Below, piece by piece: positions 18,127 to 36,397 of a stretch of DNA of 64,000 nt (positions are counted from its first letter, which is position 1; each line of letters starts with the position of its first letter). The notes below the pieces were generated by a model. That model searched no databases. It was given only the letters and a program-made list of their open reading frames with translations, and was not told the DNA's origin. The stretch is from Gordius sp. MW1 (Eukaryota; Nematomorpha; Gordioida; Gordea; Gordiidae), in contig OZ038527.1 in NCBI GenBank assembly GCA_964036665.1, positions 10,075,835 to 10,139,834 of the forward strand. The letters are read 5' to 3'. The position numbers and the translations under genes are program-made.

Positions 18127-18520
18127 TTAATGGAAAGATTTTTTGAGCTTAATGGTAAATTTTGTATACATGTAGGGATAATCAGGGCAACAAGGATAAT
18201 ATTTTGTACCGACAGAAGCAAAATTTTCAACAATTTCCCATCCAATCTTGGGATCGGGAATGTAGCTGGATATATCTATTTTGTTATCTTTACCCATTAA
18301 TTCTAATTGAAGCTTCGATGTGTCGTAAACCCATGACCCAAATGTAAAAGAACACCACCTGATTAATTCTTGGCTATTAATTGCCGCCAAAGTTTCAGTT
18401 TCATTAATATGCTTATGACATTTCATTGTTATTTTAGTAGGAGGAACAAATAGAACATCGCCATTATTAGTTACCACAGTGTATGGTCCTTTGGCTATGT
18501 CATAGGCCAGTACTTGGTCT
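18127..18520 (-). CDS. AChBP-like exon 5: Cys-loop, loops B and C, stop
   Basis: Acceptor ATTACCTTTAG, then 130 codons and TAA. It carries the Cys-loop, FGSWVYD and [11 protein letters not shown]. The vicinal cysteines with tyrosines at -2 and +5 are the alpha-type agonist-binding loop C. The stop follows [10 protein letters not shown], exactly the pre-membrane strand. No donor site lies before the stop, which favours a true C-terminus over a skipped membrane exon. Confidence 0.85.

Positions 18521-36397: not shown

Follow-up and report, generated by a model that had tools for sequence, protein, structure and literature searches.

A candidate acetylcholine-binding protein gene and its relatives in the genome of a horsehair worm

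Introduction

In structural work, soluble acetylcholine-binding proteins (AChBPs) commonly serve as the standard substitute for nicotinic acetylcholine receptors (nAChRs). Does a horsehair worm possess such a protein? The question is raised by a stretch of 64,000 nucleotides from Gordius sp. MW1 (GenBank assembly GCA_964036665.1, contig OZ038527.1, here C1, positions 10,075,835 to 10,139,834 of the forward strand), which is called the window below. A sequence-only reading of the window had proposed that five small minus-strand exons, spread over 18 kb, encode a secreted nicotinic ligand-binding domain (LBD) that ends before the first membrane helix. The analysis described here supports a candidate gene of AChBP type that is complete, with a leader, long introns and no membrane exon.

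A study of a spider published in 2015 stated that AChBPs had previously been known from molluscs and one annelid alone, so that the recorded distribution comprised molluscs, one annelid and a spider (PMC4569296). Literature titles and abstract openings, a scope outside which most subscription papers fell, contained no AChBP report from nematomorphs, and as far as could be searched the gene is of a type new for its phylum. The mechanism by which nematomorphs steer their hosts has been described as largely unknown (PMC12456768), and the gene gives cholinergic chemistry in Nematomorpha a concrete candidate that can be tested.

Gene Structure and Domain Identity

The five exons splice in frame on the minus strand, with GT/AG borders, from window position 36397 to 18127, and their 744 nt give a protein of 247 residues that ends at a TAA codon:

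36355..36397, minus strand: exon 1, 43 nt; start codon and hydrophobic N-terminus, a putative signal peptide as judged by hydropathy alone
36131..36279, minus strand: exon 2, 149 nt; N-terminal helix and first strand
36045..36089, minus strand: exon 3, 45 nt; loop D strand; the same 45-nt exon is found in the C5 and C6 paralogues described below
27753..27865, minus strand: exon 4, 113 nt; loop A (WTPDVVLFY)
18127..18520, minus strand: exon 5, 394 nt including TAA; Cys-loop, loop B (FGSW), loop C and stop codon

The running totals of exon length modulo 3 are 1, 0, 0, 2 and 0. The intron between exons 2 and 3 is unusually short at 41 nt; since this length is not divisible by three, reading through it would be out of frame and its removal is needed. 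Two other introns are long (8179 and 9232 nt). An assembly of the five exons by chance was ruled out, because three paralogues also have the 45-nt exon 3 and the 113-nt exon 4, and none of these paralogues reaches a membrane helix in the frame read.

Scored against the profile PF02931 (Neur_chan_LBD), the spliced protein reached 106.2 bits (cut-off 26) over profile positions 1–212 of 216, almost the whole profile. Exons 4 and 5 by themselves gave 75.2 bits, and the best score against PDB entries rose from 70.8 bits with these two exons to 84.8 bits once exons 1–3 were added. The stop codon comes right after the domain, ahead of any membrane helix. For the membrane part itself, PF02932, 20 candidates scored in the 211.8-Mb genome gave 14 matches, of which contig C1 had none; since the search scores the best candidates, this negative is strong rather than absolute. 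Splicing beyond the TAA into membrane exons was rejected on that ground. The window protein also differs from a nicotinic receptor subunit in its Cys-loop, which is not the 13-residue loop with FPFD but has 21 residues and no FPFD.

Loop names, loop roles and residue equivalences for the binding positions are presumed here. Aromatic residues occupy the five usual positions (loops A, B, two in C, and D) as Phe, Trp, Tyr, Tyr and Phe, with the last loop C Tyr shifted by one residue. The vicinal Cys pair of loop C is present, as are both cysteines of the Cys-loop, although the 21 residues between them are an atypical length.

Most of the sequence-only reading thus held: the three motifs that it named lie on the minus strand, and the splice phases and the stop are as it described. 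Each motif has a second minus-strand occurrence 29374–29375 bp away, and FGSW has one additional chance match on the plus strand at window 7520. Its signal peptide stands as a putative one, a hydrophobic leader found by hydropathy scan. It had also described a gene stretched by transposons. The long introns are there; of 18 open frames of at least 100 residues in the repeat unit that contains the gene (U1, see below; exon 5 is not counted among the 18), 10 were compared with Pfam and none had a match. The long introns are therefore termed repeat-bearing and nothing beyond that. The intron between exons 3 and 4 contains short repeats in tandem, their period being about 73 bp, at window 30531–31075 and 32533–32952, and again in the second copy at 59907–60451 and 61906–62325.

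Paralogues in the Gordius Genome

The sequence-only reading described a single gene; that gene stands, and tandem copies and paralogues extend the picture. Genome searches gave 22 matches with exons 4 and 5 of the window protein, 32 with a protein from contig C6 and 32 with P0001, a Gordionus protein discussed below, and the same loci were found each time. The AChBP-like loci are four copies on C1, one on C5 (2947173–2952886) and three on C6 (at 3161, 3202 and 3244 kb). The other matches, mostly weaker, fell on receptor genes of C4, C6 and C8, with one weak match at C1:2223 kb (E 0.21, P0001 as query).

Four distinct genes could be read in frame: C1, C5, C6_3161 and C6_3244, of which C6_3161 was read without exon 1. 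The C5 protein has 446 residues and the C6 proteins 259 and 242, the latter without exon 1. All three paralogues have the 45-nt exon 3 and the 113-nt exon 4 and no membrane part. The C6 genes stop right after the domain, while C5 adds a charged tail of 41 residues. At the positions of the two long introns C6_3244 has introns of 145 and 344 nt and C5 of 96 and 4144 nt, so that one of the two is long outside the window gene as well. The remaining locus, at C6:3202 kb, has a broken frame in exon 2 and no exon 5 match in three genome searches.

The Cys-loop of the C5 paralogue is 132 residues long and contains 13 His, 37 Asp or Glu and 30 Lys or Arg; the protein carries another insert as well. This paralogue may bind metal or mineral.

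Relatives in Other Animals

When exon 5 by itself was the query, no relative was retrieved. A profile built from three sequences, the window protein and two paralogues, gave 33 matches, 14 of which were taken for sequence comparison. The best (E 1.1e-72), and the closest relative found, was P0001 of Gordionus sp. m RMFG-2023, a member of the phylum Nematomorpha. The sequence-only reading had expected standard predictors to miss so stretched a gene; P0001 is entered at NCBI as an unnamed protein product. It is 38% identical to the window protein and likewise has no membrane part. Its Cys-loop has 38 residues compared to 21, ends in ELIRWC, and carries an N-glycosylation sequon five residues past the first Cys, as in the window gene. 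It differs at the N-terminus, where the deposited sequence lacks a clear leader, perhaps through an error of prediction.

A tree was computed from 29 rows and 259 of 475 columns, with the long insert and tail of C5 omitted and receptor rows trimmed to the domain. One group, supported at 100/98, comprised P0001 together with C1, C5 and both C6 genes. Eight other soluble proteins (P0002, P0003, P0005, P0007, P0008 and P0011–P0013) formed a separate group (98/99), and P0010 of Limulus was placed elsewhere. The eight resemble the window gene in matching PF02931 only, with 244–282 residues; they differ from it in their separate grouping, in Cys-loops of 13–14 residues and in keeping the loop D Trp. 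They are encoded on short contigs of about 0.9–1.1 kb from sources marked jgi or lgn. The link of the nematomorph group to the chimeric Aplysia sequence was weak (89/88) and on a long branch. On direct kinship with molluscan AChBP the tree, with its long branches, was undecided.

The Cys-loop sets the group apart. It has 21 residues in C1, 132 in C5, 32 in each of the C6 genes and 38 in P0001, compared to 12 in the Aplysia row and 10–14 in each of nine further soluble proteins that were examined. The sequon lies five residues past the first Cys in four of the five clade members and eight past it in C5; in four of the nine other soluble proteins it follows that Cys directly. Loop D has Phe in four clade members and Tyr in the fifth, where all nine others have Trp; the Aplysia row has Tyr at this position and the window protein Phe. 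Loop A has Tyr in every clade member but the window gene, which has Phe there, and the loop B Trp and loop C Cys pair are present in all five.

With the molluscan and annelid AChBPs (Aplysia, Lymnaea, Biomphalaria, Capitella) the window protein has in common an LBD alone, the Cys-Cys of loop C, the loop B Trp and an end right after the domain. Position 92 of Biomphalaria AChBP1 is taken here to be the loop A Tyr position. That protein is described as having Phe at position 92 (PMC3423370). By description, the window protein can also be set beside CsAChBP of the spider Cupiennius salei, a soluble LBD from another ecdysozoan with 246 residues, about the length of the window protein, and an enlarged Cys-loop of 16 residues (PMC4569296). 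The nAChR subunits encoded in the same genome on C4, C6 and C8 belong to the same domain family, but they have PF02932 matches and FPFD Cys-loops, neither of which is found in the window gene.

Proposed Function

The favoured proposal, which we regard as probable though well short of certain, is that the gene encodes a soluble ligand-binding receptor fragment, an AChBP of the horsehair worm, which would buffer acetylcholine or a related ligand. Its basis is a nearly complete domain, an intact frame with intact splice borders and the failure to find a membrane exon, together with the aromatics at five binding positions, both cysteine pairs, the grouping with Gordionus and the low ratio of nonsynonymous to synonymous divergence (dN/dS) in the C6 pair. 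The protein would be secreted and form pentamers, and acetylcholine or a related ligand bound between subunits would leave less free ligand in the receiving fluid. The Cys-loop, freed from coupling to the pore by loss of the membrane part, would have grown; it bears an N-glycosylation site. The recent tandem copies would raise the dose. For the molluscan AChBP a role as suppressor of cholinergic transmission has been proposed and is disputed (PMC3423370).

Several points weigh against this proposal. Phe replaces both the loop A Tyr and the loop D Trp or Tyr in the window protein, and the ligand could differ accordingly. In the PDB comparison alpha7 and Aplysia AChBP score alike with the spliced protein, and both Foldseek and VIA put nAChR subunits first; the structural model used is that of the Gordionus relative, not of the window protein. 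Selection on the window gene itself is not estimable, since pairs that include C1 or C5 are saturated at silent sites and the copies are identical. The spider study, moreover, doubted the need for buffering where acetylcholinesterases exist (PMC4569296). Foldseek and VIA did not separate AChBP from nAChR domains and were dropped as a means of telling them apart.

Buffering in the worm's own tissue would be the plainer form of the proposal and release into the host the bolder one. In the latter, a whole family of receptor domains, soluble and glycosylated, would pass from the parasite into the arthropod that it steers and soak up acetylcholine or other nicotinic ligands of the host, one member having recently been quadrupled for dose. 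We think this improbable, although the leader, the lack of a membrane part, a clade known, within the sampling, from horsehair worms alone and the very young appearance of the copies are compatible with it. The available text of a proteomic study of cricket haemolymph under Paragordius infection describes changes in host proteins and does not mention worm proteins (PMC12456768).

There are two rival readings of the gene. The protein might be a mineral- or metal-binding variant of the kind represented by ACCBP, which is described as a variant AChBP with a regulatory role in the growth of shell and nacre; Biomphalaria AChBP also binds amorphous CaCO3 (PMC3423370). The charged, His-bearing Cys-loop of C5 and its charged tail would suit such a role. 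The window gene, with its short Cys-loop and its aromatic box kept, fits it poorly, and calcification in the worm is without supporting evidence; this reading appears unlikely for the gene. Less likely still is that the gene is a decaying or unexpressed fragment, left drifting after a nicotinic subunit lost its membrane part, and that its copies were duplicated as mere passengers among repeats. The long repeat-bearing introns and the damaged locus at C6:3202 kb would fit such decay. The frame, on the other hand, is free of stops in four distinct genes (C6_3161 without its exon 1), which have exon sizes and the lack of a membrane part in common, and Gordionus has a related gene that also lacks it. 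Divergence between C6_3161 and C6_3244 (dN 0.072, dS 0.529) gives a dN/dS of about 0.14, and C1 and C6_3244 differ at codon positions 1, 2 and 3 by 101, 79 and 145 nucleotides over 244 codons, neither of which favours drift. If the soluble AChBP reading is right, this multi-gene nematomorph family, with Cys-loops from 21 to 132 residues, would show the reach of the loop once it is freed from the pore.

The Tandem Array

In the assembly the window gene lies in an array on C1 (10081985–10208582) with the layout A, U1, U2, U3, B, a spacer of 1734 bp, A, U4, B. The parts within the window are:

6151..7932, no strand assigned: flank A, repeated to the left of U4 (C1:10175529–10177308)
7933..37297, no strand assigned: unit U1, 29365 bp; contains the whole gene
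37298..64000, no strand assigned: start of unit U2, 29376 bp, which extends beyond the window end
57128..57240, minus strand: second-copy exon 4, with the same sequence as in copy 1
47501..47894, minus strand: second-copy exon 5, with the same sequence as in copy 1

The four units, three head to tail and one nearby, measure 29365–29383 bp each, and their breakpoints are equal in every copy. Pairs of units are 6–9 substitutions and 16–26 gap columns apart. There are 55 variable columns among them, 14 of which are substitutions, and the exons, together with the 10 bp on either side of them, are free of such columns. In the 184 kb compared, every exon of the five was found exactly four times, letter-identical, so that all four copies encode the same protein. 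Duplication by recombination between end repeats was rejected: in a comparison with a positive control, the 6 kb around one end of the unit had no homology to the 6 kb around the other.

The array could have arisen by very recent duplication, by gene conversion or by a fault of assembly, and the copy number comes from the assembly alone. If about 3e-9 mutations per site and generation are assumed, the substitutions between units would correspond to some tens of thousands of generations, as an order-of-magnitude guess. Part of the fourfold repetition may be an artefact of assembly, as when two haplotypes are placed next to each other, and the real copies would then be fewer; this is a possibility to be taken seriously, though we doubt it. 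The small number of substitutions over 29.4 kb would agree with it, as would an assembly gap of 200 N at C1:10212139–10212338, 3.6 kb beyond the last flank B, and the layout could be read as a three-copy allele followed by a one-copy allele. Two haplotypes in a row should, however, have more flank in common. The spacer has no other match within the 184 kb compared. For the 3.6 kb beyond the last B, and likewise for the 6.1 kb to the left of the first A, matches elsewhere are short and never exceed 294 bp. This weakens the explanation.

Genomic Context

Other features of the assembly bear on its nematomorph origin and indicate a horsehair worm distinct from the Gordionus sampled. Two Gordionus proteins have 74 and 76% identity to one nicotinic receptor frame, over 47 and 39% of that query, and the other 118 of the 120 matches listed have at most 62%; by E-value, seven of these, six of them nematode entries and one from a pearl oyster, precede the first Gordionus entry. 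In two receptor genes on C8 (5857768–5858751 and 6430018–6430845) a single open frame, of 615 and 814 codons respectively, takes in the end of the LBD, the membrane part and a very long stretch beyond it.

COX1 lies on C12, the mitochondrial contig, and the 4.3 kb around it contain 10 inverted repeat pairs of 25–108 nt, seven of them perfect. Such long palindromes are typical of nematomorphs. Long inverted repeats were termed extraordinary in an account of four nematomorph mitochondrial genomes (PMC6649704). COX1-like stretches also occur on C1, C3, C4, C5 and C8, one of them nearly full length (C8:2829490–2830827), and these are probably nuclear copies of mitochondrial DNA.
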